Part shown: in pieces, positions 3,728 to 36,312 of the stretch | How the letters are laid out: each line of letters begins with the position of its first letter | Position numbering within the stretch: position 1 is the stretch's first letter | NCBI RefSeq assembly: GCF_024723255.1 | Contig: NZ_JANIAC010000005.1 | Location: forward strand, 186,001-250,000 | Length of the DNA stretch: 64,000 nucleotides | Reading direction: 5' to 3' | From: Aestuariibaculum sp. M13 | GTDB lineage: Bacteria; Bacteroidota; Bacteroidia; Flavobacteriales; Flavobacteriaceae | Notes under the pieces: generated by a model | What the model saw: only the letters and a program-made list of their open reading frames with translations | Databases searched by the model: none | What the model was told of the DNA's origin: nothing | Program-made: the position numbers and the translations under genes

Positions 3728-3743
3728 TAAGTATTTATACTTA
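3728..3743. promoter_or_regulatory. Palindromic operator at the nitrate reductase promoter
   Basis: taagtatttatactta, an inverted repeat with Fnr/Crp-like geometry (AAGTA-N4-TACTT). Its last two bases are the first two of the -7 box at 3742. The same arrangement occurs before the Fnr-like gene (27016-27031). Confidence 0.65.
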
Positions 3744-7473: not shown

Positions 7474-8913
7474 ATGAAAATCAAGACAAAAGAATCATAC
7501 AGATTAAGAATCAACGGAGGGGTGCTTTCTCCGGGCGAGTTAAAATATATTTGTGAAGCCGCAGAAGGTTTAGGTTTAGATGCTATTTCGTTTGGTTCAC
7601 GTCAGGATATTATTTTTCCGGAGGAAATAGATGAATCTAAGTTTAGTCAGTTTGATAAAATAAAGTTTATTAAACCCAAGCGTGATGGTATGGAAAATAT
7701 TGTATCGTCATATGTTTCTGCTGATATTTTGCCAAGTACCTCCTGGTTAACAAGTGATAGGTATTTATATGTTTTAGAGCAGTTTAAGCATAAATTAAAA
7801 CTTCGCGTCAATATTACAGACCCAAAGCAGCGACTAGTGCCTTTGTTTACAGGAAATGTAAACTTTATCGCCTCAGAACACGAAGATTACTGGTATTTGT
7901 ATGTAAGACTTCCGGAATGGAAAAAAACAGTGATGTATCCGGCTTTGATTTATAGTTGGGATATGGATAAAATAGAACACGCTATTGAAAAAGTCTTAAT
8001 TGAAGAGTCTGAAAATGTAGAAACCCTTTTTGAGCTGGTTAGTGATGCTGTAGATACCAATAACAGAACAGTAGACAGACCTTTGGAAGTGCCTTTTTAT
8101 CCGTTTCCTTATTATGAAGGTATGAATCGTTTTGGCGATAAATATTGGTTAGGATTGTACTGGAGGAATAACCGCTACGACATCAGGTTTTTAAAGGCGA
8201 TGTGCGATTTATGTGCCGAAAATAAAATTGGTAAAATTTCAATTACGCCGTGGAAATCCTTTATTGTAAAAGGTATTCCAATGAAATTTAAATTACAATG
8301 GGAACGCTTTTTAGGAAGTTATGGTATTAATGTACGTCACTCTATGCTCGAATTAAACTGGCATTTGCCGGTTTTTGATGCTGCTGCTTTAAATCTTAAA
8401 AAGTATCTGGTTACCAATTTCGATCAGAATGATATTAGTACCTATGGACTAACTTTTGGCATCTCTAATTACGAGAGTAAAACCTATCATTTTACCTCCA
8501 TAGTTATTGAAAAAAACAAGCAACCAGAGAATTTAGGTGATTTTATAATTAGAGATACCTATAATTTATTGTATGCCAAGAATTTCGATCCGAATACACG
8601 AGAATACATCATGCATGTTCAGGATGTCGATAAGGTTGAACTTCCCGGCTTACTTATGGAATTAAGTAAATTGTATTTTGAACAATTGGGAATGGAGCGT
8701 GAAGAGGAAGTGGAAACTAATGTCATTAAAGATATGAGTGAAGAAGAAGTATATCAGTGTAAAGATTGTTTAACCATATATAATGCAGCTTACGGAGACC
8801 TTACACAGGATATTGTTCCTAATACACCTTTTGAAAATTTACCGGAAATGTATGAATGTTCCATTTGCGAAGCACCTAAAAGCAGTTTTGAAAAAAAGGT
8901 ATTTGTGAAATAA
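7474..8913 (+). CDS. Sirohaem-reductase-like protein with C-terminal rubredoxin domain
   Basis: A 479-residue protein. The N-terminus (about 3-70; YRLRINGGVLSPGELKYIC) is a nitrite/sulfite reductase ferredoxin-like half-domain, and the middle (about 100-400) keeps the general length and Trp/aromatic-rich character of such reductases. The four cysteines that bind the [4Fe-4S]-sirohaem pair in true reductases are absent: the only other cysteines before the tail are in MCDLCAEN. Residues 426-479 form a rubredoxin domain with YQCKDC and YECSIC knuckles. It begins 5 bp after the nitrate reductase gene and is probably translated with it. The likely role is an electron carrier or assembly partner of the Mo enzyme; catalysis of nitrite reduction by this chain is unlikely. 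The function is inferred, not established. Confidence 0.75.
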   Translation: MKIKTKESYRLRINGGVLSPGELKYICEAAEGLGLDAISFGSRQDIIFPEEIDESKFSQFDKIKFIKPKRDGMENIVSSYVSADILPSTSWLTSDRYLYVLEQFKHKLKLRVNITDPKQRLVPLFTGNVNFIASEHEDYWYLYVRLPEWKKTVMYPALIYSWDMDKIEHAIEKVLIEESENVETLFELVSDAVDTNNRTVDRPLEVPFYPFPYYEGMNRFGDKYWLGLYWRNNRYDIRFLKAMCDLCAENKIGKISITPWKSFIVKGIPMKFKLQWERFLGSYGINVRHSMLELNWHLPVFDAAALNLKKYLVTNFDQNDISTYGLTFGISNYESKTYHFTSIVIEKNKQPENLGDFIIRDTYNLLYAKNFDPNTREYIMHVQDVDKVELPGLLMELSKLYFEQLGMEREEEVETNVIKDMSEEEVYQCKDCLTIYNAAYGDLTQDIVPNTPFENLPEMYECSICEAPKSSFEKKVFVK

Positions 8914-9041: not shown

Positions 9042-9455
9042 ATGAACAACGTGTTAAACATATTACTTATTGAAGACGATGCCATCGAGGTGATGAAATT
9101 GAATAGGGCAATTTCGTCTTTAAATCTAAATCATAATATTATAGAAGCGCATAACGGAGAAGATGCGCTTATTTTTTTAGAACAAAAAAATAATCTTCCA
9201 GACATTATTTTGTTAGACTTAAATATGCCGAAAATAAACGGTATTGAGTTTTTAACAATACTTAAAAATAATGATGTTTTAAAGTATGTTCCTACTATTG
9301 TTCTAACCACGTCAAGTAATCAAAAAGATTTGTTAGAATGCTATAAAATTGGCATCGCAGGATATGTTTTAAAGCCGTTAAAGTACGACGAGTATGTTTT
9401 AAAAATTGAAAGCTTATTGAAATACTGGAGCATGAATGAGCTTATCAGGGTTTAA
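9042..9455 (+). CDS. CheY-like single-domain response regulator
   Basis: A 137-residue stand-alone receiver domain. The acidic pocket is Glu11/Asp12/Asp13, the phosphorylation site is Asp59 (IILLDLNMPKING), and Thr/Lys switch residues occur in VLTTSS and GYVLKPL. There is no output domain, so it can act only as a phosphate relay or protein-binding switch. I chose the ATG at 9042 because the longer reading uses a TTG placed only about 14 bases after the -7 box. It heads a set of four signalling genes (receiver, PAS kinase, Hpt, LytTR regulator), separated from the kinase by 147 bp in which I see no other feature. Confidence 0.85.
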   Translation: MNNVLNILLIEDDAIEVMKLNRAISSLNLNHNIIEAHNGEDALIFLEQKNNLPDIILLDLNMPKINGIEFLTILKNNDVLKYVPTIVLTTSSNQKDLLECYKIGIAGYVLKPLKYDEYVLKIESLLKYWSMNELIRV

Positions 9456-9602
9456 GGTAAATTCTTCATTTTTAGACCTTATTGTTATTCTGTACAAATT
9501 TATAAAGTAAATCTTACGTTTTATCTTTCAATTCTCGTGTAATAATCGTTACTTTACTAATAGAAATAAAACGTCATACCCTAATTTTTAATACCAATAT
9601 TA

Positions 9603-11537
9603 ATGCGTCAAGATGAGATTGACATATTAAAACAGCAATTAGCTGAAGAAAAGGCTGCGCGTATTTCTGCAGAAACCGAATTGTCTGAAGTTAAAAAACG
9701 ATTAGATAATACTGAAAATGGCCTGAAGGTTGGGTGTGAAAGTATTGTCGATGCATACCTTATAATGGACTTATCGGGAAACATTCTTAAAATGAATGAA
9801 AGCGCCCGAAATATACTAGACTTTAATGGAGACGGAATTGGTTATAACCTGATGTCTATGGTGAATCCGGAAGATCTGGAAAAGGTTAAAATTTCCTTTA
9901 AACAGCTTTTAAATGAGGGAATAATTACCAATTTCGAATTAAAGATTAAAACCCCGTTACAGCAATATAAAATTGTTCAGATTAATGGCAATATACTTTA
10001 TGAAAATGGTAGCCCTGTAGCAGCACAAGGTATTATTAGAGAAATTACTAAAAGCAAAGAAGCAGAAGAAAAACTAAGGGAATCTGAAGACCGACTGGCA
10101 ACGGTAATACTAAATCTTGACAAAGGTATTTTATTAGAAGATGAAAACAGAAGCATTATCGTTACCAATAATAAGTTCTGTGAATTTTTTAAAATTCCAT
10201 TACAACCAGAAGAACTTGTTGGTGTAGATTGCAGAAACGCTGCCGAAGAGGCAAAGTATTTGTTTAAAGAACCTGAAGCTTTTGTAAATAGAATCAATAC
10301 CATAATTAACCATAGAGAAGTAGTTACGGCGGAAGAACTTGAGATGGTTGATGGTCGTGTTTTTGAACGCGATTATGTTCCGGTTTTTAGAAATGGTGAG
10401 CTGAAGGGGCATTTATGGACGTATAAAGATTTTACGGTAAGGCGTCAGTACAGAGAAACTCTGGATCAGGAACGTTTAAAGTACAGAAACGTCATTACAA
10501 AAATGAATCTGGGTTTGGTAGAAGTCGATTTAAAAGATCATATTATTGTTGCCAATGAAAACTTCTTGCGAATGTCAGGGTATTCGGCCGAAGAACTTAT
10601 AGGTTCAGATGCTAAAAACTTATTTAGATTTGATCAGGAATTCTTTGAAGAAAAACGTGGAAATCGCGATCAGGGTTTAACCGATTCCTATGAAATAAAA
10701 ATGATTACCAAACGTGGTGAAGAACGCGATTGGTTAGTTAGTGTTGCGCCAAATTTTGATAGTAACGGCAACATGATAGGAACTATCGGTATTCATTTAG
10801 ATATAACTCATGTAAAAAGTTTAGAGCGCGAAAAGGTAGATCTTCTGGGGGCTTTAGAGCGAAGTAATAACGAATTACAGGAATATGCACATATTGTATC
10901 TCACGATTTAAAGTCGCCTTTGCGTAGTATAAATGCTTTGGTGAGTTGGATTAAAGATGATAACAAAGGGAAATTAGATGCGCCCACCATTCAGAATTTA
11001 GGTTTAATAGAAACTACTTTAGAGCGCATGGAGCAATTAATATCCGATGTGCTTGCCTATTCCAGTGTCGGATTTTATGAAAACGAAAAAGAGCCCGTTA
11101 ATGTTCAGGAAGTTGTTCAGGATTTAATTGAGATACTATTCATTCCAGAACACATAACAGTTTATATTTTAAAGCCTCTACCTGTAGTTTTCGGACATAA
11201 AACTAAAATACAGCAGTTATTTCAGAATTTAATAAGCAACGCTATTAAGTTTATAGATAAAGAAAAAGGGTTTATTTATATCTCTTTTGAAGAGTTAGAC
11301 GAGGCCTATCAATTTTCAGTTCAGGATAACGGAATGGGTATCGATAAAAAGTTTCATGAGAAAATTTTTAAGGTTTTTCATGCTTTAAAAAAGAGTCATG
11401 ATTCAACGGGTATTGGATTGTCTATTGTACAAAAAATTGTTGAACTGCACCATGGTAAAATTTGGTTAGAAAGTAAGCCTAATAAAGGCACTACATTTTT
11501 CTTTACATTAAAAAAAGGAACTAATGGAACAGCCTAA
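9603..11537 (+). CDS. Soluble multi-PAS sensor histidine kinase
   Basis: A 644-residue cytoplasmic kinase with no membrane segment. Residues 1-40 are a charged coiled coil; three PAS-like domains follow (about 45-160, 165-285 and 295-415); then a HisKA domain with phospho-acceptor His434 in IVSHDLKSPLRS; then a HATPase domain (NLISNAIKF, DNGMGIDKKF, TGIGLSIVQKIVE). No cofactor-binding residue for haem or flavin is obvious in the PAS domains, so the signal is unknown. The last 14 bases overlap the Hpt gene, indicating translational coupling. It probably starts the His-Asp-His-Asp relay formed with its neighbours. Confidence 0.87.
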   Translation: MRQDEIDILKQQLAEEKAARISAETELSEVKKRLDNTENGLKVGCESIVDAYLIMDLSGNILKMNESARNILDFNGDGIGYNLMSMVNPEDLEKVKISFKQLLNEGIITNFELKIKTPLQQYKIVQINGNILYENGSPVAAQGIIREITKSKEAEEKLRESEDRLATVILNLDKGILLEDENRSIIVTNNKFCEFFKIPLQPEELVGVDCRNAAEEAKYLFKEPEAFVNRINTIINHREVVTAEELEMVDGRVFERDYVPVFRNGELKGHLWTYKDFTVRRQYRETLDQERLKYRNVITKMNLGLVEVDLKDHIIVANENFLRMSGYSAEELIGSDAKNLFRFDQEFFEEKRGNRDQGLTDSYEIKMITKRGEERDWLVSVAPNFDSNGNMIGTIGIHLDITHVKSLEREKVDLLGALERSNNELQEYAHIVSHDLKSPLRSINALVSWIKDDNKGKLDAPTIQNLGLIETTLERMEQLISDVLAYSSVGFYENEKEPVNVQEVVQDLIEILFIPEHITVYILKPLPVVFGHKTKIQQLFQNLISNAIKFIDKEKGFIYISFEELDEAYQFSVQDNGMGIDKKFHEKIFKVFHALKKSHDSTGIGLSIVQKIVELHHGKIWLESKPNKGTTFFFTLKKGTNGTA

Positions 11538-15184: not shown

Positions 15185-16273
15185 TTATTCTAAGAACTTA
15201 TTTCTCAATTTAGAAATGGCGGTAGAATCCAGTCCTATTTCGGTTTCAAGATAGTTTTGTACAGAGCCATATTCGGCTTTTAAGATATCCATACCTGTTT
15301 GTAAATATGAACGTCTAACGCTCATCATTGGTCTTAAAATTCTCTGGTCGATACCGTAGAATTTTGCAGCCTTTTTAATGGTTTCTTCGTTGTTATCATA
15401 TCTAAAGTAGTTTGATAACGTGTACTCATTATAAATGGTTTCTTCATCAACACCTAAAGCCGTTAAAATTAAAGCTGAGGCATGTCCTGTTCGGTCTTTA
15501 CCTGCGGTACAGTGGAATAATAACGGTGTTCTGTCGTTATTTAGTAAATCACTGAAAAGGGTTTTAAAGGCGTCTTTACTTTTTAATAAATCTTCTGAAA
15601 TGTCTTCCATAAGTTTACCGCCGTCAAACGTTTCAGGATTGGCCTCTCTCAGTTTTCCAAACATTTCTTTCATATTGCCATTTCCCATATTTCCAACAGG
15701 CACATGAAACCATTGCACACCATTAGGATACATGTCTGGTTTTTCTTCGATTTCTTCGTTGGTTCTAAAATCCAAAATGGATTTAATATCGATAGTGCTC
15801 ATGTAGGCTAAATCTTCGTTTGTAAGATCTGATAATTCGCCAGAACGATAAATTAAGCCCCATTTTGTGTGTTTGCCATCTTGGGTTGGAATACCTCCTA
15901 AATCTCTAAAGTTTACACTGTTTTCTAAATCGATTTCACGTTCGGTTAAGTGTAAAGTATCTTTGCCGTTAACTGCAGCAAAAGCTAAACGTTGGTTAGG
16001 AGTGCTGTTTTTAATAGTTATGATTTTGTTTTCGTTAGAAAGTGTTACAGGAGCTTTCCAGTTTATAGTTTCAAAACTGTTACCCGAATATACATTCCAG
16101 TTACCTTTGCTTCTTAGAGTTAATTGGTAATCTTTTTCAGGTAATTTATCGACATAAATAACTTCGTTTAAAGTGTATTCTGGTCGTTCTGGTTTTGTAT
16201 ACTCTGCACAAGCCGCAAATACGGCTATACTGGCAACACTAAGCAGGCCTTTTATATGTTTTTTATTTATCAT
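15185..16273 (-). CDS. Exported lipoprotein tyrosine/inositol-phosphatase-like protein
   Basis: A 362-residue lipoprotein: signal peptide with lipobox ending at Cys22 (VFAACAEY), then an Ig/Fn-like beta region (about 30-110), then a Tyr_phosphatase_3 domain with the NFRDLGG motif (121-127) and the catalytic P-loop HCTAGKDRTG (Cys255, Arg261). Cys-based phosphatases of this type act on phosphotyrosine, phosphoinositides or inositol phosphates; the preferred substrate cannot be read from sequence. It is the last gene of a three-gene set with a second phosphatase and a TonB receptor, suggesting cell-surface removal of phosphate from an imported substrate. Confidence 0.82.
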   Translation of the reverse strand: MINKKHIKGLLSVASIAVFAACAEYTKPERPEYTLNEVIYVDKLPEKDYQLTLRSKGNWNVYSGNSFETINWKAPVTLSNENKIITIKNSTPNQRLAFAAVNGKDTLHLTEREIDLENSVNFRDLGGIPTQDGKHTKWGLIYRSGELSDLTNEDLAYMSTIDIKSILDFRTNEEIEEKPDMYPNGVQWFHVPVGNMGNGNMKEMFGKLREANPETFDGGKLMEDISEDLLKSKDAFKTLFSDLLNNDRTPLLFHCTAGKDRTGHASALILTALGVDEETIYNEYTLSNYFRYDNNEETIKKAAKFYGIDQRILRPMMSVRRSYLQTGMDILKAEYGSVQNYLETEIGLDSTAISKLRNKFLE

Positions 16274-16306
16274 TTGATTTGATACTTATTTTTTGAAAAT
16301 AGAGTT

Positions 16307-17149
16307 TTATGACTCTAAATAATTAGTTCTCATTTTATTGACGTCGACATGAATGGTTTCAAGAAAAGTATCAACATTTCCATATTCCTTTTCTATGTTA
16401 TCTAAAAAGGCATTTATGAAAGCTTCACTTGGACCAAAGTTTTTCTTTAGTTTTTCTAAAGCTTCTTTACCATATTTGGTTGAAATATAATTGTGATATT
16501 GTTCGTAAGATTTTGCAAGATAGGTTTTAGTTGCTAAATAATCTTTAACGATGTCGGCTCTATTTACTCCTAACGACCATAAAACTAAAGCGGCTGTCAT
16601 GCCAGCTCTGTCTTGACCTGCCTGGCAATGCCATAGTGTAGTTTTGCCTGTCTCTAATAAGTTAAATACAGTTTCAAAACCTTTTTTCTTTTGGGTGTCT
16701 ATTGTACCATAAAATTCAAGCATTTTTTCTTTTGCACTGTATTTTCCGGAAAGCACATCGACGATAAAAGATTCTGCATTAACTGTTTTTCCAGATGGGT
16801 CATTTGCCATTAGAGGATAGAAGTACATTTTAATGTCGGAAGGAATGCGATCTGGTTTTTCTTCAACTTCATGGGCTGTTCTCAAGTCAATGACTTGCTC
16901 TAAGCCTAATTGTTTAATGGTTTCCTGATCGGCATCGGTTAAAGCTGAAAGTTCTCCTGAACGAAATAGTTTTCGGTATAATACCCGTTTTCCGTCGGCT
17001 CCAATAAAACCTCCCATATCTCTAAAGTTGTCTTCACCTTCTAAATTTACGTGAGTTTCGTAGGATTTATTGTTTTCTGAAGTTTGTGCGGTTAAACTAA
17101 CCGCACAACTTGCTGAAATTAATAGATTGAATATTGTTTGTCTTAACAT
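16307..17149 (-). CDS. Secreted tyrosine/inositol-phosphatase-like protein
   Basis: A 280-residue paralogue of the neighbouring phosphatase, without its beta-sandwich region. It has a cleavable signal peptide (MLRQTIFNLL to about AQT at 21-23), the NFRDMGG motif (41-47) and the catalytic loop HCQAGQDRAG (Cys175, Arg181). The final Thr/Ser of the canonical HCxxGxxR[ST] loop is Ala here, a substitution that in related enzymes slows thioester or phosphoenzyme breakdown. It is separated by 33 bp from the lipoprotein phosphatase and by 5 bp from the TonB receptor, so all three are probably one operon. Periplasmic or secreted location is predicted. Confidence 0.8.
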   Translation of the reverse strand: MLRQTIFNLLISASCAVSLTAQTSENNKSYETHVNLEGEDNFRDMGGFIGADGKRVLYRKLFRSGELSALTDADQETIKQLGLEQVIDLRTAHEVEEKPDRIPSDIKMYFYPLMANDPSGKTVNAESFIVDVLSGKYSAKEKMLEFYGTIDTQKKKGFETVFNLLETGKTTLWHCQAGQDRAGMTAALVLWSLGVNRADIVKDYLATKTYLAKSYEQYHNYISTKYGKEALEKLKKNFGPSEAFINAFLDNIEKEYGNVDTFLETIHVDVNKMRTNYLES

Positions 17150-27015: not shown

Positions 27016-27031
27016 TAAGTATTAATACTTA
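27016..27031. promoter_or_regulatory. Palindromic operator before the Fnr-like regulator gene
   Basis: taagtattaatactta is a perfect 16 bp palindrome (AAGTA-N4-TACTT). It overlaps the -7 box at 27030 by two bases, as at the nitrate reductase promoter, suggesting autoregulation. It could also act on divergent moeA. Confidence 0.7.
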
Positions 27032-27133: not shown

Positions 27134-27844
27134 ATGCCGTATAATACATCGTGTCATACCTGTGAAAATGTTAATTGCTTAATAAAAAGTAATATGGTGG
27201 CTTTGGATGGTGTTGAATTGACAGTCAAAAAGAATAATTTACGATGTAAAAAAGGTCAGCAGTTTATTATAGAAGGTGCGCCTGTTAATGGCTTGTTTTT
27301 TGTATTAAAAGGAAAGGTTAAAGTTTTTAGGACAGGTATAAATGGAAGAGAGCAAATTGTTCGTTTTGCTCGTGAAGGTGAAATTATTGGACATCGTGGG
27401 TTTGGGACTGAAGAGTATTATTCCATTGGAGCTATTGCATTAGAAGATACCGTACTGTGTTATTTTTCTAAATATATGTTGCAAGAGGCTTTATTGAATA
27501 GTCCTAAGTTTGCTTACGATTTTATGCTGTTTTACGCTAACGAGCTAAATAAAAGTGAATCTAAAGTGAAATCTATTTCGCAAATGACTGTTCGTGAACG
27601 TGTTATAGATACCTTATTATATATAAATAGAAAATTTGGAGTTAATAAAGGGTTTCTTGATGTTACTTTAAGTAGAAAGGAATATGCCGATTACGCCGGA
27701 ACTACAGAAGAACAGGTAATCAGAGTGTTTTCTGCTTTAAAAAAGGAAAAATTGATTACCGCCAAAGGAAAAAAAATAGGAATTAATGATATAGATATAT
27801 TGAAAAAGGAGATTAGTGAACATAATTTCTTTTTAGATAGTTAG
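27134..27844 (+). CDS. Crp/Fnr-family regulator with N-terminal cysteine cluster
   Basis: A 236-residue regulator. The N-terminus has Cys7, Cys10 and Cys15 (CHTCENVNC) and a further Cys38, resembling the [4Fe-4S] ligand set of Fnr. Residues about 40-150 form the cyclic-nucleotide-binding-like beta-barrel (FIIEGAPVNGLFFVLKGKVKVF), followed by the long dimer helix and a Crp-type helix-turn-helix (LSRKEYADYAGTTEEQVIRVFSALKKE). The ATG at 27134 is preferred to the TTG at 27080. Its promoter carries the palindrome also found at the nitrate reductase, globin and importer promoters, so it is the best candidate for their regulator. The signal could be oxygen, NO or redox state. Confidence 0.83.
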   Translation: MPYNTSCHTCENVNCLIKSNMVALDGVELTVKKNNLRCKKGQQFIIEGAPVNGLFFVLKGKVKVFRTGINGREQIVRFAREGEIIGHRGFGTEEYYSIGAIALEDTVLCYFSKYMLQEALLNSPKFAYDFMLFYANELNKSESKVKSISQMTVRERVIDTLLYINRKFGVNKGFLDVTLSRKEYADYAGTTEEQVIRVFSALKKEKLITAKGKKIGINDIDILKKEISEHNFFLDS

Positions 27845-27885
27845 AAGAGTTTGTTTTAAGTGCTTTACCAGCTTTATTAGTTATT

Positions 27886-27914
27886 GCCATACGTATTACG
27901 TGTGGCTTTTTTTT
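27886..27914 (+). terminator. Terminator of the Fnr-like regulator gene
   Basis: GCCATACGT pairs with ACGTGTGGC (one G-U pair) around a three-base loop, followed by eight T residues. The stem contains a TACGTA sequence, which is probably coincidental. Confidence 0.75.
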
Positions 27915-28009
27915 GTTCTTTACTTAAGCTTAATGGGGGATTTGAAGTAATTATGATTTTTTGCAGGTTTTATTCTGACTAAAAACTGTTGTTGTTGTGT
28001 GATATGTCA

Positions 28010-28040
28010 TTGAATAGTAAAGGCACTACGTATATATTTG
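28010..28040 (+). promoter_or_regulatory. Promoter of the globin operon
   Basis: TTG at 28010-28012 and TATATTTG at 28033-28040, spacing 20, form a good Bacteroidota -33/-7 pair. From GCAGGTTT at 27963 to the downstream palindrome the region aligns without gaps to the importer promoter. Confidence 0.65.
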
Positions 28041-28049
28041 AAATGTCTT

Positions 28050-28065
28050 TACGTATTAGTACGTA
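28050..28065. promoter_or_regulatory. Palindromic operator downstream of the globin promoter
   Basis: tacgtattagtacgta, a variant of the 16 bp palindrome (13 of 16 positions shared with the importer copy). It begins exactly 17 bp after the start of the -7 box, the same offset as at 31950. Confidence 0.6.
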
Positions 28066-28100
28066 TCTATTTTTAAGTAAATTATACTAACCAAATAATA

Positions 28101-28523
28101 ATGAAAATTATGGAGCAGAAAACAATCACTTTAGTTCAGGAGTCTTTTGAAAAGGTAAAGCCTATAGCTGCGACAGCGGCTGAAATATTTTATTCTAAGT
28201 TGTTCGAGTTAGATCCGGCTTTAAAACCTTTGTTTCCAAGCGGTGAAGAAGCGATGAAAGTTCAAGGCAATAAATTAATGACTATGCTGGCTGCGGCAGT
28301 TGTTGGGTTAAGTAATCTGGAGGCTTTAATTCCCGTTTTGCAGGATTTAGGTAAGCGTCATGTAGGTTATAATGTAACGCCTGAGCACTACAGTACCGTT
28401 GGGGCAGCTTTATTAGATACGCTTGCAACTGGTTTGGGTGATGATTTTACACCTGAAGTAAAAGAGGCTTGGGCTTCGGTATATGGAACCATGTCTACGG
28501 TCATGATTGAGGCTTCTTATTAA
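28101..28523 (+). CDS. Single-domain globin of the flavohaemoglobin type
   Basis: A 140-residue haem protein related to the globin domain of Hmp and to Vitreoscilla haemoglobin. The key residues of NO-detoxifying globins are present: Tyr31 at B10 (IFYSKLF), Gln55 at E7 (KVQGNK) and the proximal His87 (KRHVGYN). It has no reductase domain, but a flavin/2Fe-2S reductase is encoded three genes downstream, so the pair could act as a split flavohaemoglobin converting NO to nitrate. An ATG nine bases later is an alternative start. It is the first gene of the five-gene module, 18 bp before the next gene. Confidence 0.88.
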   Translation: MKIMEQKTITLVQESFEKVKPIAATAAEIFYSKLFELDPALKPLFPSGEEAMKVQGNKLMTMLAAAVVGLSNLEALIPVLQDLGKRHVGYNVTPEHYSTVGAALLDTLATGLGDDFTPEVKEAWASVYGTMSTVMIEASY

Positions 28524-28541
28524 TTTAATTAAAAGGGAATT

Positions 28542-29369
28542 ATGAAAACAAAATTATTATATAGTGTTTTAAAAGTATTAACAATTCAGTTAGTAGTATT
28601 GAATTTAGTGTCTTGTGGTGGTGTGGCTGAAGAATCAACTGTCGATGCTGGAGAAGAAAACGTGTTTTCTGTAGATGAGGTATTGGAAATGGTTGCGAAA
28701 GAAAATGACGTAACCAGAACTTTATATACAAAAGCAATTGTAGGTAAAGGAAAGTTGCAGGGTATGAAGTTCGATGAAGACTGGAGAAAGGATGATGTGG
28801 AAGCAGGGCCATTACCAGCTTTGTTTTTGAGAGGTGTAGCAACGAGTATTAGAAAAAGTCCTGTGCCGCTAGGGCTTTACTTAGGGTCGGATCACCCGGT
28901 TAACAAGGCTAATAAATTTGAAGGTAAGCAAGCTGCACTATTTGAAGAAATTAAGAAAGATCAAAAGCCTCAATATTTTTTTGATGAAGAGCAAAAGCTG
29001 CATACCGCAATGTTTGCTGATTTAGCCAGTGCGGGTGCCTGTGTAAGTTGTCATAACGCTCATCCTCAAACCACAAAAAGTGATTGGAAGTTAGGCGATG
29101 TTATGGGGGCTACCACCTGGCAGTATCCAAAAGATTCATTGTCATATAAGGAAACAGTGGCAGTCTTAAATTCTTACTCAAAAGGTACAATTGATATTTA
29201 TATGGAGTATCTCGATGAAATCGCGGCGTTTAAAGCTAGTGAAAAACCGGTAATTGGAGATAAGTGGCCGGCAGAAGGTAATTATTTGCCAACAGCTGAA
29301 GTCTTTCTTGACAGTGTGAGAAAGTTGGCTTCATATGAAACCATGAATAAGCTGTTAGCAATGAAATAA
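28542..29369 (+). CDS. Tll0287-like (DUF3365) monohaem lipoprotein
   Basis: A 275-residue predicted lipoprotein: signal peptide with lipobox LNLVSCGG (Cys25), then a DUF3365/Tll0287-like domain containing one c-type haem motif, CVSCH (167-171, followed by NAHP). Proteins of this family are periplasmic haem proteins with a PAS-like fold and have been proposed as redox sensors or carriers. In this operon it would face the periplasm, next to a pentahaem cytochrome and a membrane cytochrome b, and is a likely terminal acceptor or sensor for the chain. The exact role is unknown. Confidence 0.78.
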   Translation: MKTKLLYSVLKVLTIQLVVLNLVSCGGVAEESTVDAGEENVFSVDEVLEMVAKENDVTRTLYTKAIVGKGKLQGMKFDEDWRKDDVEAGPLPALFLRGVATSIRKSPVPLGLYLGSDHPVNKANKFEGKQAALFEEIKKDQKPQYFFDEEQKLHTAMFADLASAGACVSCHNAHPQTTKSDWKLGDVMGATTWQYPKDSLSYKETVAVLNSYSKGTIDIYMEYLDEIAAFKASEKPVIGDKWPAEGNYLPTAEVFLDSVRKLASYETMNKLLAMK

Positions 29370-29423
29370 AAAGCAGGCTTATTTGTAAATTAATAAATAC
29401 TTCTTGTTGATAATCTGTTTGTA

Positions 29424-29903
29424 ATGAATCTGAAACAAAAACCTACCCTTCTCGGGCTTGTACTTCTCATACTTTTCTTTATTCAGTTTGTTTTTAAACT
29501 TGAATGGAAATGGTTACTGGAGCTGCAGACGGGAGAAATGTATAAACGCTGGACAGGTTTGGTTTTGGCTCTGTTTATCACTTTTCAGTGGGTGTTAACT
29601 TTAACCAGGGTTATCAAGCGGTTTAGGAAATATTCAGTTAAAATGACTCAAATCCATAAATGGGTTGGGGCGCTAAGTCCGTTGTTTTTCTACACCCATA
29701 GTATTGCAGCGGGGTATGGGTATTTAGCTTTGTTAACCTATTTGTTTTTTGCAAATGCCTTGTTGGGATATCTTAATTTAGATGTTGTTAAAAACAATAG
29801 TGATTGGCTGTTTAAATGTTGGATGATTTTGCATGTGTTGTTTTCAGTAATTATTACTGTACTTATGGTGTTTCATATAGGAGTTGTTTTTTACTATAAA
29901 TAA
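29424..29903 (+). CDS. Small dihaem cytochrome b-like membrane protein
   Basis: A 159-residue protein with four hydrophobic helices (about 8-25, 43-62, 80-110 and 132-156). Two helices carry histidine pairs at identical spacing: His78 and His92, and His137 and His151, each 14 residues apart. That H-x13-H pattern on two facing helices is how ferric reductases and NADPH oxidases stack two b haems across the membrane. I do not recognise the family by name. Directly followed (6 bp) by the FAD/2Fe-2S reductase, which could feed electrons from NAD(P)H into it, and then by a periplasmic pentahaem cytochrome. Confidence 0.7.
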   Translation: MNLKQKPTLLGLVLLILFFIQFVFKLEWKWLLELQTGEMYKRWTGLVLALFITFQWVLTLTRVIKRFRKYSVKMTQIHKWVGALSPLFFYTHSIAAGYGYLALLTYLFFANALLGYLNLDVVKNNSDWLFKCWMILHVLFSVIITVLMVFHIGVVFYYK

Positions 29904-29909
29904 TAAAAC

Positions 29910-30938
29910 ATGAAATTATTAGTAACGGATATCGTAAAAGAAACAGATGATGCATTAAGTGTCTGTTTTAAAAATGGTAACATATTTAATAAGTTAAAAT
30001 ATAAACCCGGACAATTTTTAACAATACACGTACCTATAAAAGGTCAAATATATAAACGTGCTTATTCTTTTAGTAGTAGTCCATATATAGATAGAGATTT
30101 GAAAATTACTATTAAAAGGGTTGATAAAGGACTTGTGTCTAATTTTGTTCATGATAATTTAAAGGTAGGAGACAAGTTGGAGGTTGATAAGCCTATGGGG
30201 TCTTTTTTTGTTGAGCCTAAAAAGGGTGAGGCAAAAACCTATGTGTTTTTTGCCGGAGGAAGCGGGATAACTCCGATTTTCTCTATTATTCAGTCGATTC
30301 TTGTTAAAGAGGTAGATTCAAAAGTGTTGCTTTTTTACGCGAATCAAACGCTATCGTCTATAATCTTTGCGGAAGATATAAGGCAATTATCTAATATATA
30401 TCCAGATCAATTTAAGGTAGAACATATTGTTTCTGATTTAAATTTAAGGGCGGAAAATTATCACCAAGGTTTTCTTTCCGATGCTATTTTAACCAGTGTT
30501 TTTTCAAAGCACAAACTTGAGTTTGATAATCATGTTTATATGGTATGCGGGCCGTTTGGTTATATGGAGAAGGTAAAAGAGCTTCTGAATTTGAACGGAA
30601 TTACCAGGGAGAAAATTAAGGTAGAGGTGTTTAAGTTGCCAATGGTGAAAGTTACGGGTAAAGATTTGCTAAGTAATGTTACTATTAAAATAAAAGATCA
30701 ATCATATGGTATAAAGGTAAGAGGTGATAAATCTATTCTTCAGCAGGCAATGTCTGAGAATATTGCTATACCATATTCATGCAGGTCTGGTATGTGTTCT
30801 ACCTGTAAAGCGACTTGTGTATCCGGTGATATTAAAATGGTTGAAGGGCATATTCTAGAGCAAAGTGAAGTTGATCAAGGGAAAATATTAACCTGCGTGA
30901 GTTATCCGGAAAGTGAGTCGGTTGTTATTGAATTTTAA
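29910..30938 (+). CDS. FAD/NAD(P)H and [2Fe-2S] oxidoreductase (PaaE/Hmp-reductase-like)
   Basis: A 342-residue cytoplasmic electron-transfer protein. The FAD-binding barrel (about 1-100) has the RAYSFSSSP motif, the NAD(P)-binding domain (about 105-230) has FFAGGSGITPIFSI and MVCGPFGYME, and the C-terminal domain (about 250-342) is a plant-type [2Fe-2S] ferredoxin with SCRSGMCSTCK and a final Cys in LTCVSYP. This is the layout of PaaE-type reductases. It could reduce the globin, the dihaem cytochrome b, or both. It lies 6 bp after the cytochrome b gene and 10 bp before the pentahaem gene. Confidence 0.87.
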   Translation: MKLLVTDIVKETDDALSVCFKNGNIFNKLKYKPGQFLTIHVPIKGQIYKRAYSFSSSPYIDRDLKITIKRVDKGLVSNFVHDNLKVGDKLEVDKPMGSFFVEPKKGEAKTYVFFAGGSGITPIFSIIQSILVKEVDSKVLLFYANQTLSSIIFAEDIRQLSNIYPDQFKVEHIVSDLNLRAENYHQGFLSDAILTSVFSKHKLEFDNHVYMVCGPFGYMEKVKELLNLNGITREKIKVEVFKLPMVKVTGKDLLSNVTIKIKDQSYGIKVRGDKSILQQAMSENIAIPYSCRSGMCSTCKATCVSGDIKMVEGHILEQSEVDQGKILTCVSYPESESVVIEF

Positions 30939-30948
30939 TATTTAAAAT

Positions 30949-31668
30949 ATGTTTAAAGTAAATCCATTAAGAAAAAGACAAATAATAGGCGGGGTGTTCG
31001 GACTTGTGCTGGGTGGATTTATTTTCTTTGTGTTAACTCTTGATGCTTCAGAAAAGTATGTATCTATAGGTCCTATGAATACCGGGCATAACAATATGTC
31101 TTGCGTGGTTTGTCACGCTGATGCTAAAGGGAATCTTTGGCAGCAAGTACAGTCTAATATTTCACATAGTTTTGGTTTTAGAAAAACAGGTGTCGATTTC
31201 GGAACAAAGGATGTAACTGTTGATAATTGTTTACAATGTCATGACCGACCTAATGACAGGCATCCATCATATCGTTTTTCAGAACCTCGATTTAGTGATG
31301 CTATAAAGGTTATTGATGCAACAACTTGTATTACGTGTCATTCGGAGCATCACGAAGAAAGGGTTTCAGTTCCAACAGCAGATTATTGTATGAATTGCCA
31401 CCAGGATCTTGAAGTTGAGAACGATCCGTTGGATATTAGTCATGCCATGTTAATTACTAAAAAAGAATGGACGACCTGTATACAATGTCATGATTTTCAT
31501 GGTAATCATAAATATGAAGTGGCTACCAGATTAAAAGATACTATACCTATGCTAACTATTGAGAAGTATTTTCAAGGAGGGGTCGATCCGTATAGCAATG
31601 ATAAGAAATATATTGGTTTATCGGAGTTGGAATGGTTGGAGCAATTTAAAAATAAAATCAACAAATAA
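30949..31668 (+). CDS. Membrane-anchored pentahaem cytochrome c
   Basis: A 239-residue protein with an N-terminal membrane anchor (about 11-30) and five CxxCH haem c motifs: CVVCH 52-56, CLQCH 94-98, CITCH 127-131, CMNCH 147-151 and CIQCH 177-181. Additional histidines (for example HSEHHEE and HDFHGNH) could be distal ligands, giving bis-His haems as in NrfH/NapC or cytochrome c3-like carriers. It is the last gene of the globin module and would accept electrons at the outer face of the membrane from the cytochrome b. The final acceptor is unknown. Confidence 0.85.
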   Translation: MFKVNPLRKRQIIGGVFGLVLGGFIFFVLTLDASEKYVSIGPMNTGHNNMSCVVCHADAKGNLWQQVQSNISHSFGFRKTGVDFGTKDVTVDNCLQCHDRPNDRHPSYRFSEPRFSDAIKVIDATTCITCHSEHHEERVSVPTADYCMNCHQDLEVENDPLDISHAMLITKKEWTTCIQCHDFHGNHKYEVATRLKDTIPMLTIEKYFQGGVDPYSNDKKYIGLSELEWLEQFKNKINK

Positions 31669-31728: not shown

Positions 31729-31771
31729 AAATCCGCTGATTTTCTAAGTAAAATTAAGCGGATTTTTATTT
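31729..31771 (+). terminator. Terminator of the globin/cytochrome operon
   Basis: AAATCCGCT and AGCGGATTT (31757-31765) form a long stem, extended by ATTTT/AAAAT, and are followed by a T-rich run. Just beyond it are three TACGTA hexamers (31775, 31784 and 31798). The rest of the 31669-31987 gap is the importer promoter region. Confidence 0.65.
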
Positions 31772-31909
31772 TTTTACGTATGGTACGTATGTGTAATTAC
31801 GTATTATGTTTTATTTTTATTTATTTGAAAATAAGGTATTTATGTTGATTTTATGGTTTTTAGCAGGTTTGTTTATGTTTAAAAAGATAATATTACATGT
31901 GCTATGCCA

Positions 31910-31940
31910 TTGAAGGGTTGAGTAACTACGTATATATTTG
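31910..31940 (+). promoter_or_regulatory. Promoter of the nitrate importer operon
   Basis: TTG at 31910-31912 and TATATTTG at 31933-31940, spacing 20. The 16 bp up to and including the -7 box (actacgtatatatttg) are identical to those of the globin promoter. Confidence 0.65.
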
Positions 31941-31949
31941 CTAAGTAAA

Positions 31950-31965
31950 TAAGTATTAATACTTA
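31950..31965. promoter_or_regulatory. Palindromic operator downstream of the importer promoter
   Basis: taagtattaatactta, identical over all 16 bp to the copy before the Fnr-like gene. It starts 17 bp after the start of the -7 box, in or near the start of the transcript, a position more usual for repression. Confidence 0.7.
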
Positions 31966-31987
31966 GTTAAACTAAAAATCCTTCAAT

Positions 31988-33376
31988 ATGAAATCAGTAT
32001 TAAAAAAATCAGCATGGGCATTATCAGTTTCATTACTGCTATTTTCTTGTGGTGGAAAAGATTCTAAAAAGAAAGCGGTTACAGAAGATATCGCAGCGAA
32101 TGTATCTAAAACAAAAACTTTAGATATAGAAAAACCTCAGTTAACCTTTGGTTTTATAAAATTAACAGATATGGCACCTTTAGCCATTGCTAAAGAAAAA
32201 GGCTTCTTTGAAGATGAAGGTTTATTTGTGTCTGTAGAAGCACAGTCAAACTGGAAAAATGTATTAGATAGAGTAATCGATGGTCAGTTAGACGGATCGC
32301 ATATGTTGGCTGGGCAGCCAATTGCAGCAGGAGCTGGTTTTGGTAGACAAGCAGAATTAGTAACGGCTTTTTCAATGGACTTAAATGGTAACGGTATTAC
32401 AGTGTCTAACGATGTGTGGTCTAAAATGAAAGCTAATGTACCAATGGGAGAAGATGGTAAGCCAGTTCATCCTATTAAGGCAGATGCCTTAAAACCTGTA
32501 ATTGCGGACTATAAAAATAGTGGGAAAGCCTTTAAAATGGGAATGGTGTTTCCGGTATCTACACACAACTACGAAATTAGATATTGGTTAGCAGCAGCGG
32601 GAATTCACCCTGGAATGTATACAGCAGAAAATGTACAAGGACAAATTGATGCAGAAGTATTATTATCTGTAACACCTCCGCCACAAATGCCAGCAACCTT
32701 AGAAGCTGGAACAATTTATGGGTATTGTGTAGGTGAGCCATGGAATCAGCAAGCGGTTTTTAAAGGTATTGGCGTGCCAGTGGTAACAAACTATGATATC
32801 TGGAAAAACAATCCTGAGAAAGTATTTGTAATGACTAAAAAGTTTGTTGAAGAAAACCCAAATACAGCAATCGCAGTAACAAAAGCATTAATTCGTGCAG
32901 GAAAATGGTTAGACGAACCAGGAAACAGAGCGGAAGCAGTAAAAATCTTATCAATGCCTCAATACGTTGGAGCTGACGAAGTAGTGTTAGCAAATTCAAT
33001 GACCGGAACGTTTGAATTTGAAAAAGGAGATAAACGTGAAATGCCAGACTTTAATGTATTCTACAAGTATAATGCAACCTATCCTTTCTATTCAGATGGT
33101 ATCTGGTTCTTAACTCAAATGCGTCGTTGGGGACAAATTCCTGAAGCGAAACCAGCCGATTGGTATGCTGAAACGATTAAAGATATCTACAGACCTGATA
33201 TCTGGAAAAAAGCAGCTTCACTTTTAGTTGAAGAAGGATATATTCCAGCTTCAGATATTCCTCAAACCGATGGATATAAACCAGCAACTACAGACTTTAT
33301 TGACGGAACATCGTACGATGCAAAAGATCCGATTGGGTATATAAATAGTTTCAAAATAGGAAACAAAGACAAATAA
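31988..33376 (+). CDS. NrtA-like nitrate ABC transporter substrate-binding lipoprotein
   Basis: A 462-residue lipoprotein with lipobox LLFSCGG, followed by a NrtA/CmpA-type binding protein ([56 protein letters not shown]). NrtA-family proteins capture nitrate or nitrite for import; CmpA relatives bind bicarbonate, but the nitrate reductase context and the order of downstream genes favour nitrate. It is anchored in the membrane rather than free in the periplasm. It is the first gene of a five-gene operon ending with an outer-membrane porin. Confidence 0.88.
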
Positions 33377-33489
33377 GATATTCAATATTGAATTTAGTAA
33401 TCATGAGGTTGGTCAGAATAGAGAAGGTATTAACCAAAACGATTCTGGCGAATTCCATAAGACTACTTTAAATAAATAAAAATAAACAG
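33377..33489. other. 113 bp spacer in the importer operon
   Basis: It contains a perfect 14 bp palindrome, ATTCAATATTGAAT (33380-33393), and further complementary pairs (CAGAAT 33414-33419 with ATTCTG 33442-33447). Such structures often adjust the ratio of abundant binding protein to permease by protecting the upstream mRNA. Confidence 0.35.
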
Positions 33490-34596
33490 ATGAAACAGAG
33501 CATAACATTAGATAGAGTGACCAAATTTATGGGGCTTGGATTTTTAATCACTTTAAAATCCTTGTTCACCGGAGATTTAGATAAAGAAGGGTTTAGAAAC
33601 TTCTTAAGAAAAGTTGTCGTGCCAATCGCTTCCATATTCTTATTTATCGGCTTATGGCACATGGGCGCTAAATCTTTATACAATATAGAAGCAGATTATA
33701 AGATTGAGAAAGCTTTAACTGAACAAGGGCAGGAGGCAGCAGATGCTATGAAAGCATGTATAGCTTCTGGAGATATAAGTTGCCAACCTAACACATTACC
33801 GTCTCCTGCGCAAGTTTGGGAATCGTATAAATCGTTATTAAGAGATCATCAAATAATTAGTGCAGATAAAGCAGCTTTTGCAGAGAAAACAGCAGTAATA
33901 AATGCAAAACGTATTGCTGAAGGGAAAGATTCAATCGTGTATACAGGGCGTCCGTCGTTTGTAGATCAGATTTTAACCAGCTTAAAAACAGTGTTTGCAG
34001 GATTTTTATTAGCCTTGGTTATTGCAGTGCCAATTGGGGTTATCATAGGGTTGAGCAAAACGCTAAGAAGTTCTGTTAACTGGTTAATCCAGATTTTTAA
34101 ACCGGTATCTCCTGTAGTGTGGTTGTTATTAGTGTTCATGATTGTGAAAACGATGACTAAAGATTCAAATTCCGATAGTGCATTCATCATCTCATTTATA
34201 AGTGTTGGTTTGTGTTCTATGTGGGCGACTTTAGTAAATACTGCAATGGGGGTGGCATCGGTAGATAAAGATTATATCAATGTGGCTAAGGTTTTGAAAT
34301 TAGGACCGGTACAGAAAGTGTTTAAAGTGATTTTACCTTCTTCATTACCATTAATATTTACAGGTTTGAGAATCACATTATCTGTGGCTTGGATGGTTCT
34401 TATTGCTATCGAATTATTAGCGCAGAGTCCAGGTTTAGGGTCGTTTGTATGGGAGGAATTTCAGAATGGAGCTATTGATTCGAATTCAAAAATTATTGTA
34501 GCCATGTTTGTAATCGGTGGTATCGGTTTCTTATTAGATCGAATCATGCTAACCATTCAAAATACAGTATCATTCAATAAGACCAGTGGAATTTAA
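33490..34596 (+). CDS. NrtB-like nitrate ABC transporter permease
   Basis: A 368-residue inner-membrane permease of the BPD_transp_1 type. The first helix (about 43-60) is followed by a long segment, about residues 60-160, which is larger than in cyanobacterial NrtB and carries two cysteines (Cys90 and Cys98) that could form a disulfide. The remaining helices follow, with the EAA loop region (VAKVLKLGPVQKVFKVILPSSLPLIFTGL), which contacts the ATPases. It is followed after 33 bp by two ATPase genes. Confidence 0.88.
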   Translation: MKQSITLDRVTKFMGLGFLITLKSLFTGDLDKEGFRNFLRKVVVPIASIFLFIGLWHMGAKSLYNIEADYKIEKALTEQGQEAADAMKACIASGDISCQPNTLPSPAQVWESYKSLLRDHQIISADKAAFAEKTAVINAKRIAEGKDSIVYTGRPSFVDQILTSLKTVFAGFLLALVIAVPIGVIIGLSKTLRSSVNWLIQIFKPVSPVVWLLLVFMIVKTMTKDSNSDSAFIISFISVGLCSMWATLVNTAMGVASVDKDYINVAKVLKLGPVQKVFKVILPSSLPLIFTGLRITLSVAWMVLIAIELLAQSPGLGSFVWEEFQNGAIDSNSKIIVAMFVIGGIGFLLDRIMLTIQNTVSFNKTSGI

Positions 34597-34629
34597 TAAG
34601 TAGCAATTCATATTTAAAAAATTAAGAAA

Positions 34630-35475
34630 ATGGCATACTTAGAACTAAATAGCGTATACAAAACCTACGGACAAGGCGATCATGCAACCGAGGTGCTTTC
34701 AAATATCAATTTATCGATTGAAGAAGGTGAATTTGTAGCTATCGTTGGGTTTACCGGGAGTGGTAAAACAACTTTAGTAAACTTGATAAATGGCTTATTA
34801 CAACCAACAAGAGGTGAGGTGCTTTTTAAAGGCTTACCAGTTTTAGGAACAAGTCATGAGCGTGGTGTAATTTTTCAAAATTACTCACTGTTGCCATGGT
34901 TGACTGTTGGTCAAAATATATACATGGCTGTAAAAGAGGCTTTTCCGAAGAAAAGTAAAAAAGAACTTCATGAGATTGTTGCAGAGTATGTAGCGATGGT
35001 GAATTTAACGCCAGCGATAAATAAAAGACCTAAAGAATTGTCTGGGGGGATGCGTCAGCGTGTGGCGGTTGCAAGAGCGTTAGCCATGAAACCCGAAATG
35101 ATTATTATGGATGAGCCACTTGGGGCTTTAGATGCCTTAACTCGAGGAAATCTTCAGGATGAAATTTTAAACATCTGGGGTAAAGAAAAGCGAACCGCTT
35201 TATTAATCACCAATGATGTGGATGAAGGGATTTATATGGCAGACCGCATTATTCCATTGCGTCCGGGGCCAAAGGCGACTTTAGGACCAGAGTTTAAAAT
35301 TGATATTGAACGTCCGCGTGATAAAACCGAGCTTAATGATAATGCAAATTTTAAGGAAACAAGAAATGCTATTATCGAATACTTAATGGATATAGGAAAT
35401 GAGCGTAAATCTGTAGATCAGGAAGTTTACGAATTACCAGATTTAACACCGAAAAGTTTTGTCGGACACTTTTAA
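34630..35475 (+). CDS. Nitrate ABC transporter ATPase, first subunit
   Basis: A 281-residue ABC ATPase of the NrtC/NrtD/SsuB group. Walker A GFTGSGKT (40-47), Q-loop FQNYSLLPWL, intact signature LSGGM (137-141), Walker B MIIMDEP. The switch (H-loop) histidine is replaced by Asn195 (LITNDVDEG), so its own ATP site is likely non-catalytic or slow. It lacks the NrtA-like C-terminal regulatory domain of cyanobacterial NrtC. Its C-terminal tail (about 240-281) is longer than in minimal ATPases. It pairs with the ATPase encoded 12 bp downstream. Confidence 0.88.
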   Translation: MAYLELNSVYKTYGQGDHATEVLSNINLSIEEGEFVAIVGFTGSGKTTLVNLINGLLQPTRGEVLFKGLPVLGTSHERGVIFQNYSLLPWLTVGQNIYMAVKEAFPKKSKKELHEIVAEYVAMVNLTPAINKRPKELSGGMRQRVAVARALAMKPEMIIMDEPLGALDALTRGNLQDEILNIWGKEKRTALLITNDVDEGIYMADRIIPLRPGPKATLGPEFKIDIERPRDKTELNDNANFKETRNAIIEYLMDIGNERKSVDQEVYELPDLTPKSFVGHF

Positions 35476-35487
35476 AACTTGGAAAAT

Positions 35488-36312
35488 ATGACTATAAATA
35501 CAGCACATACAGATATAGTAACCGAAAACGGTATTACATTTCATGAAGATGTGATGTTGGATTTAAAACACTTGAAAAAAGTTTATCCAACTCCAAAAGG
35601 AGATTATGTGGTTCTTGAAGATTTAAATCTTCAGATTATGAAAGAAGAATTCGTAACCATTATCGGGCATTCAGGATGTGGTAAAACTACCATGTTGTCG
35701 ATGATTGCAGGCTTAAATGAAATCTCAGGAGGTAATATTTCGGTATTAGGACATCATATAAAAGGGCCGGGACCGGACCGAGGCGTCATTTTTCAGGCAC
35801 CAAGTTTAATGCCTTGGATGACCTCATTGCAAAATGTGATGTTGGGTGTGAATCAGGTATTTCCACATGCTACAAAATCACAACGCACCGATATCGCTAA
35901 ATACTATTTACAAAAAGTAGGTTTGGAAGATGCCTTTCATAAAAAAGCATCAGATTTATCTCAGGGTATGCAGCAACGTGTAGGTATTGCTAGAGCTTTC
36001 GCGATAAAACCCAAAGTGTTGCTTTTGGATGAGCCTTTCGGGATGTTAGATTCTTTAACACGTGGCGAACTTCAGGATATTCTTATTGAAATCTGGAATA
36101 AAGAAAAAATTACAGCGGTGATGATTACGCATGATGTGGACGAAGCAATCTTTTTAGCAGATCGTGTGGTGATGATGACCAGTGGTCCTAAAGCAAAAAT
36201 CGGGGATATTTTAAATATAGATTTTGAACGTCCAAGAACCCGAAAAGCAGTTTTAGAGCACGACGATTATTATAAATACAGAAAACATCTTATTGATTTC
36301 TTAGAGCATTAA
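35488..36312 (+). CDS. Nitrate ABC transporter ATPase, second subunit
   Basis: A 274-residue ABC ATPase. Walker A GHSGCGKT (60-67), Q-loop FQAPSLMPWM, Walker B VLLLDEP, intact H-loop His215 (MITHDVDEA), but a changed signature LSQGM (157-161). Together with the preceding subunit this predicts one consensus and one degenerate ATP site in the heterodimer. The ATG at 35488 is preferred over the TTG nine bases upstream. The 62 bp to the porin gene is A-rich without a terminator, so the operon continues. Confidence 0.88.
   Translation: MTINTAHTDIVTENGITFHEDVMLDLKHLKKVYPTPKGDYVVLEDLNLQIMKEEFVTIIGHSGCGKTTMLSMIAGLNEISGGNISVLGHHIKGPGPDRGVIFQAPSLMPWMTSLQNVMLGVNQVFPHATKSQRTDIAKYYLQKVGLEDAFHKKASDLSQGMQQRVGIARAFAIKPKVLLLDEPFGMLDSLTRGELQDILIEIWNKEKITAVMITHDVDEAIFLADRVVMMTSGPKAKIGDILNIDFERPRTRKAVLEHDDYYKYRKHLIDFLEH

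Follow-up and report, generated by a model that had tools for sequence, protein, structure and literature searches.

The stretch of DNA analysed here, called the window in what follows, spans 64,000 nucleotides from Aestuariibaculum sp. M13 (Flavobacteriaceae) and carries at positions 28101-31668 a cassette of five genes for a globin, cytochromes and a flavin-dependent reductase. All five open reading frames (ORFs) lie on the + strand and are separated by 18, 54, 6 and 10 bp, in agreement with a preliminary description, made from the letters of the sequence, of an operon with gaps of 6 to 54 bp:

28101-28523, + strand: single-domain globin of the flavohaemoglobin/Vitreoscilla type (PF00042, 67.9 bits)
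28542-29369, + strand: Tll0287-like (sCache_heme) monohaem protein, probably a lipoprotein (PF11845, 32.6 bits)
29424-29903, + strand: small membrane cytochrome b with two predicted haems (H78/H137 inner, H92/H151 outer)
29910-30938, + strand: NAD(P)H/FAD/[2Fe-2S] reductase of PaaE/Hcr-like architecture (FAD_binding_6, NAD_binding_1, Fer2)
30949-31668, + strand: pentahaem cytochrome c with an N-terminal membrane anchor (five CxxCH)

Most of the protein assignments first proposed were recovered by profile searches. The globin was well above the Pfam cut-off for PF00042 (22 bits), the three domains of the reductase each exceeded theirs and the last protein of the cluster displayed the five CxxCH motifs expected of a pentahaem cytochrome c.

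Conservation of the cassette was followed in a family sample of 299 genomes of Flavobacteriaceae, where a genome was credited with the module if it encoded an ortholog of the pentahaem protein at E<1e-60. Seven of 31 pentahaem matches (E 2e-5 to 7e-4) were set aside as weak and partial, and at six of these seven (loci L026-L031) no further module gene was present; the module was hence counted in 24 of the 299 genomes. The order globin, Tll0287-like protein, cytochrome b, reductase, pentahaem protein was kept in 22 of the 23 other loci. A scan of named genomes, which overlaps the family-sample loci, covered 135 relatives, of which 80 were retained; their genera include Zobellia, Maribacter, Aquimarina, Tamlana and Algibacter, next to metagenome-assembled genomes (MAGs), one of them labelled only Bacteroidia. 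All 80 named loci displayed the four-gene core and 75 the complete five-gene order, so that the scattering of genes which the preliminary description had named as evidence against a single module was not encountered. Among the 395 genomes of a phylum sample, a full-length cytochrome b match was found in the present genome only; four other matches were short (E 1e-4 to 7e-4).

Departures from the common order were few. The sole exception among the 23 loci, L054 (genome G229), carried the cytochrome b and Tll0287-like genes together with a 571-residue fusion (9214-10929, - strand) in which the reductase domains were N-terminal and the pentahaem part C-terminal; this locus included neither a globin nor an nrt match, and the G229 genome does encode the fused nitrate reductase. 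The globin gene was not adjacent to the core in five of the 80 named loci. Three of these (L118, L120 and L128, all Aquimarina records) belonged to genomes encoding a tandem two-domain globin elsewhere, as at L120 14408-15292 (- strand), where each half was ~60% identical to the window globin. L108 ended at a contig end and a globin fragment was present at the edge of another contig, and no globin was found in the MAG of L103. The Aquimarina clade without adjacent globin also displayed a lower mean identity of the reductase (44% vs 53%) and changes at F54 and K223 among 62 invariant reductase columns, observations on a single clade on which nothing was built. At L120 the module was flanked by genes resembling parts of an iron-sulphur operon, presumably SUF. 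Downstream of the cassette, many Aquimarina loci (L124 10736-14275, L114, L119, L127 and others) carried genes for a small monohaem cytochrome and for two cytochrome c maturation proteins resembling CcsB/CcsA.

The distribution of the module was strictly nested within that of assimilatory nitrate reduction. Orthologs of the fused assimilatory nitrate reductase (NasA; at least 63% identity over the full length or nearly so, G271 being represented by two fragments) were found in 67 of the 299 family genomes, and all 24 module genomes were among them (Fisher p = 6e-18, kinship ignored); the co-occurrence suggested earlier as a check was thus complete. In the named set the enzyme was present in 79 of 80 cases: 28 within the fetched locus, 49 of the 50 for which a search was made, and L055 and L126, which were matched to family-sample genomes. 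The miss was the MAG of L094, and the genome of L090 displayed a fragment only. The best NrtA match lay inside the fetched stretch in 70 of the 80 named loci. Periplasmic enzymes were less constant: orthologs of NapA and of NrfA were each present in 14 of the 24 module genomes (NrfA being scored in 45 genomes at E<1e-100; 51 passed the Pfam cut-off), and seven of the 24, including the present one, displayed neither, which argues that the cassette is independent of periplasmic nitrate and nitrite reductases and tied to assimilatory reduction. With near certainty, the five genes form one conserved, nitrate-linked unit.

The following features of the window bear on placement and regulation:

27134-27844, + strand: CRP/FNR-family regulator with an N-terminal C-x2-C-x4-C (cNMP_binding and HTH_Crp_2 above cut-off)
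31988-36312, + strand: nrtA, nrtB and two ATPase genes (called NrtC and NrtD) of an ABC nitrate transporter, with the cassette upstream
3947-7468: fused assimilatory nitrate reductase
3728-3743, no strand: palindrome TAAGTATTTATACTTA, upstream of the fused nitrate reductase
27016-27031, no strand: palindrome TAAGTATTAATACTTA, between moeA and the regulator
28050-28065, no strand: palindrome TACGTATTAGTACGTA, upstream of the globin
31950-31965, no strand: palindrome TAAGTATTAATACTTA, upstream of nrtA

The regulator starts at ATG 27134; the profile search and the count of its cysteine motif used a start two codons upstream. The transporter names are presumed ones. The 1173-residue nitrate reductase includes a NirB-like FAD part and is directly followed by a NirA-like nitrite reductase (7474-8913), whose C-terminus is presumably rubredoxin-like, judged from its motif.

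The cassette is located between the CRP/FNR regulator and nrtA, and the regulator was found directly upstream in 19 of the 23 other family-sample loci. Thirty of the 43 NasA-positive genomes without the module encoded NrtA at E<=1e-60, and the regulator immediately preceded nrtA, with no ORF of at least 90 codons between them, in 21 of the thirty. The remaining nine displayed different neighbours, G213 a lone globin (53%). An empty site was provided by the congener G115, whose NasA and NrtA are 96% and 98% identical to those of the window and whose regulator and nrtA are spaced by 254 bp. When aligned over 263 columns, this stretch shared 185 identities with the window region upstream of the globin, and over 284 columns it shared 193 with that upstream of nrtA; these two window regions (27873-28081 and 31770-31976) also resemble each other. 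Since the cassette is flanked by two copies of one promoter region, its clean loss by recombination would be possible; a clean gain by way of the same flanks may likewise be conceived. The cassette is an optional, precisely placed part of the nitrate-assimilation locus in some flavobacteria, and its presence and absence inside one genus offer a natural test pair.

A palindrome common to the cluster and the nitrate genes, already noticed in the preliminary description, was found exactly at 3728, 27016, 28050 and 31950 and recurred across relatives. With up to one mismatch it was matched six times in the window, against a shuffle mean of 0.93, and six matches were reached by none of 100 shuffles. 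When the exact pattern TAmGTA-n4-TACkTA was sought in the named loci, over the 300 bp before each gene and its first 30 bp, it was displayed by 63 of 77 globin, 57 of 63 nrtA and 33 of 56 regulator genes, by three of 79 Tll0287-like genes and by none of the 80 cytochrome b, reductase or pentahaem genes each; single-base shuffles gave zero to two matches per gene set even at one mismatch or less. In the present genome nine exact copies were found, against one for the reversed pattern. They precede NasA, the regulator/moeA pair, the globin, nrtA, a NirB-like gene (named after a 27% match to the FAD part of NasA), a major facilitator superfamily (MFS) transporter gene and a dehydrogenase-like gene; for two copies on contig C1 the neighbours displayed no evident nitrate link. 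The copies before the MFS transporter and NirB-like genes lie outside the window (G000:C7:137784 and G000:C7:183387), and both genes are likely further members of the same regulon. CRP/FNR sites consist of five-base arms around a four-base spacer. The regulator, which displayed its C-x2-C-x4-C motif in 51 of 52 aligned rows, is probably the controller of this palindrome regulon and would bind the site.

The cytochrome b consists of 159 residues and reached no Pfam cut-off. Its best family was PF01794 (20.4 bits, cut-off 28; E<=0.01 in 36 of 61 rows), and as this cut-off was not reached, the protein is said to work like the FRD superfamily and not to be a member of it. Four histidines, arranged as H78-x13-H92 and H137-x13-H151, were invariant in 61 of 61 rows; a lack of such conservation had been named beforehand as speaking against a single module. 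Of the earlier designation as a four-helix dihaem cytochrome b, the haem ligands stood and the helix number was nearly right: the predicted model (pLDDT 87.1, pTM 0.78) displayed five long helices (6-24, 38-63, 65-92, 100-125 and 127-157, short breaks ignored), including an extra N-terminal one, and a short helix at 29-35. VIA-align superposed model residues 36-159 on residues 27-150 of SpNOX (8qt6; Z 8.4, 114 residues, 3.5 A) and also matched NOX5 (5o0t; Z 7.4, 115 residues, 3.1 A); comparators scored as well or higher, Z reaching 7.9 with cytochrome b561 (4o6y), 7.7 with Dcytb (5zle) and 9.6 with the best of the unrelated helical bundles. No Foldseek match was obtained with the model at E<=0.001, and the profile of the cytochrome b alignment matched no PDB sequence at E<=0.01 or at E<=1. 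The haem ligands of SpNOX are H69/H129 and H83/H142 (PMC11564096), one of them being given as H82 in PMC11031084; taken as an overall offset of nine rather than residue by residue, the superposition would put the present histidines at SpNOX positions 69, 83, 128 and 142. The corresponding pairs of NOX2 are 101/115 and 209/222 (PMC3591440). The histidine pattern, together with a basic loop between long helices 2 and 3, suggests that H78/H137 is the pair on the cytoplasmic side.

The reductase stayed below the cut-offs of all named relatives compared, scoring 243.1 bits against the NCBIfam profile for PaaE (cut-off 420.8), 169 against the PRK10684 NADH oxidoreductase, which we take to be Hcr (383), and 126.9 against the reductase part of Hmp (NF009805; 432). 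The pentahaem protein displayed its five CxxCH motifs in 81 of 81 sequences, and six further histidines (H47, H105, H134, H165, H184 and H187) were invariant in 58 of 58 rows. These would suffice for bis-histidine ligation of all haems, and the protein is therefore read as a relay and not as a catalyst. MtrC/MtrF-like and DmsE-type multihaem profiles were its best matches, and it did not reach the cut-off of NrfH (TIGR03153; 14.4 bits, cut-off 134.2). Its predicted structure was unusable (mean pLDDT 50.3), and no PDB sequence was matched by its alignment profile at E<=0.01 or at E<=1.

The Tll0287-like protein passed the PF11845 cut-off (24.1 bits) and displayed one CxxCH in 80 of 80 cases, as the earlier term monohaem Tll0287-like lipoprotein implied. 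Its lipoprotein nature is likely, though less firm: C25 was present in each of the 26 rows aligned, whereas a rough lipobox pattern was found in 62 of the 80 proteins, starts being uncertain. Besides C25 and those of the CxxCH no cysteine was invariant; the axial cysteine of stand-alone Tll0287 members of the redox type was thus not conserved in these 26 rows, and at least one extra cysteine was present in 17 of 80 proteins, at positions unplaced relative to the axial site. Searches of PDB sequences with the protein by itself gave weak matches only (best E 0.11), among which the known Tll0287 structure did not figure.

In the globin Y31, Q55, H87 and Y97 were invariant in 22 of 22 rows; we take these to be Tyr B10, Gln E7, His F8 and Tyr G5. 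The closest solved structure was 3s1i (111.7 bits). Glu H23 is part of the proximal triad of Hmp, and this position was not conserved, being E137 in the window globin and K, D, N or another residue in relatives. Against the Hmp equivalog NF009805 the globin scored 86.2 bits (cut-off 432). Globins of at least 45% identity were encoded by 23 of the 24 module genomes and by two of the 43 NasA-positive genomes without module (G213 and G180); weaker globin-like matches in G051, G262 and G075 (26-41% identity, frames of 405-455 residues) were not counted. The solitary globin of G213 (L152 10622-11041) is located at the cassette site, that of G180 (G180:C32:34353-34769) directly before NasA. Hmp was also considered as a replacement where the module is missing and was rejected, with above-cut-off Hmp in at least two of the 67 NasA-positive genomes, one with and one without module.

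Several known systems resemble parts of this unit. In Bradyrhizobium japonicum the genes narK-bjgb-flp-nasC encode, along with nitrate transport and assimilation, a single-domain globin and an NAD(P)H flavoprotein which protect against nitric oxide (NO) arising from nitrate assimilation, and Flp is proposed as the electron source of Bjgb (PMC4724949). This likeness is one of gene content. The operon as named in that paper includes no cytochrome b, pentahaem or Tll0287-like gene, and its control is ascribed there to NasS-NasT, in contrast to the CRP/FNR-type palindrome found here (PMC4724949). MsrQ-Fre-MsrP and the NADPH oxidases share the principle of a haem b protein in the membrane that is fed by a separate flavin reductase of the cytosol and in turn reduces a periplasmic partner (PMC11031084), and the histidines of the cytochrome b are paired in two helices as in SpNOX; the differences are a cytochrome b below the Pfam cut-off, a pentahaem cytochrome c in place of the molybdoenzyme and an extra [2Fe-2S] domain on the reductase. 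The globin and the reductase resemble the two halves of Hmp but are separate proteins far below its cut-off, and the reductase carries Fer2. Tll0287/sCache_heme proteins share the PF11845 domain and the single CxxCH; here the protein is instead a probable lipoprotein in an electron-transfer operon and lacks the invariant axial cysteine. The components belong to known superfamilies, while their combination, placement and regulon match no named system among the papers listed in searches of the open-licence PMC literature, as represented by their titles and the beginnings of their abstracts.

As its best though tentative explanation, the cassette is read as an accessory part of the nitrate-assimilation regulon in which the whole unit handles NO, a reading we consider possible rather than probable. 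The preliminary description had already proposed electron flow from NAD(P)H to periplasmic haems, a reductase shared with the globin and a role in NO or nitrogen-oxide handling, and is partly supported. Electrons from NAD(P)H would enter at the cytoplasmic FAD-[2Fe-2S] reductase. One exit would be the cytoplasmic single-domain globin, which would convert the NO that nitrate and nitrite reduction release as a by-product; this exit is proposed because of the analogy with Bjgb-Flp (PMC4724949). By the other, electrons would pass to the inner haem of the minimal NOX/MsrQ-like dihaem cytochrome b, across the membrane and on to the anchored periplasmic pentahaem cytochrome c, a route proposed because of the reductase-pentahaem fusion of L054 and the MsrQ-Fre precedent (PMC11031084). 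From there they would reach the monohaem Tll0287-like lipoprotein, which may hold or reduce NO, or else some related nitrogen oxide, or may pass electrons on to whatever does so. The transmembrane route from NAD(P)H, taken by itself, is rather probable. The most specific version, a two-sided defence in which one reductase powers the cytoplasmic globin and, via the cytochrome b/pentahaem relay, an NO-binding or NO-reducing periplasmic lipoprotein, is doubtful as it stands. One signalling member of the Tll0287 family without axial cysteine binds NO tightly (PMC12889525), and the role of stand-alone members is described in the same preprint only broadly, as redox-related.

A number of observations weigh against NO handling by the whole unit. 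The six extra histidines could ligate all five haems of the pentahaem protein, leaving no open site. Stand-alone Tll0287 domains look redox-like and release NO fast, and so does the C59A variant of a stand-alone Tll0287 domain, without axial cysteine (PMC12889525); absence of this residue alone hence does not make an NO binder, and a pure relay role appears as likely as NO binding for the present protein, itself a stand-alone member. The core occurs in L054 without any globin and in L103 with none shown by its MAG, so that it can do without the globin, and G213 and G180 carry the globin without the core. The module is absent from 43 of the 67 NasA-positive genomes. Finally, module genomes are enriched for NrfA (14 of 24 vs seven of 43 other NasA-positive genomes, p = 0.0007) and for Nap (14 of 24 vs 11 of 43, p = 0.017; both Fisher tests, kinship ignored), which fits a role as electron donor as well.

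Four other explanations were weighed. The first takes the membrane branch for a periplasmic ferric reductase, supplying iron for nitrate and nitrite reductases rich in Fe-S centres and sirohaem, with the globin as separate NO protection. PF01794 as the leading family of the cytochrome b, its NOX-like helix arrangement and the MtrC/MtrF-like and DmsE-type profiles of the pentahaem protein all agree with this, although the identifiable recurring neighbours are nitrate, nitrite and molybdenum-cofactor genes, a weak argument in that the other neighbours are mostly unannotated and iron-uptake genes and Fur-type sites were not sought. We consider this explanation unlikely.

Less likely again are two unrelated units under one promoter, the globin serving NasA and the core doing something else. 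The succession regulator, globin, nrtA in G213, the globin beside NasA in G180 and the globin-free core of L054 would all fit it, and globin distances correlated least with those of the cytochrome b (r 0.56). Against it, a globin of at least 45% identity accompanies the core in 23 of 24 cases but occurs in two of the 43 NasA-positive genomes without core, and globin distances fit those of the reductase best (r 0.71), a weak argument in view of the one shared species tree.

That the core donates electrons to periplasmic nitrogen-oxide reductases (Nap, NrfA) seems improbable. Several relatives have NrfA or NapAB-type genes next to the cassette, and both enzymes are enriched as stated; however, seven of the 24 module genomes, the present one included, encode neither (NosZ, Nor and NirK not having been searched for), and the Nap locus L038 has NrfD and Fe-S genes of its own. 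Least probable of all is a NOX-like or redox-poising valve that lets electrons from NAD(P)H drain to O2 or to acceptors in the periplasm whenever nitrate use shifts the redox state, which would suit the NOX-like cytochrome b and reductase and an exposed SpNOX haem that may permit direct cytochrome c reduction (PMC11031084) but leaves the pentahaem protein, the haem lipoprotein and the globin unexplained.

Elsewhere in the window (15185-17149), and unrelated to the cassette, two adjoining genes displayed HCTAGKDR and HCQAGQDR loops, presumably phosphatase-like, near a gene which we take to encode a TonB-receptor-like protein.

If the two-sided defence is correct, the cassette would represent a flavocytochrome spanning the membrane, by which electrons from NAD(P)H are delivered to a multihaem cytochrome c so that nitrate assimilators can detoxify nitrogen oxides. 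MsrQ is described as the only prokaryotic FRD-like cytochrome with a clearly identified function (PMC11031084), and the present system would add a physiological role to such cytochromes; it would also provide testable partners for stand-alone Tll0287 proteins.

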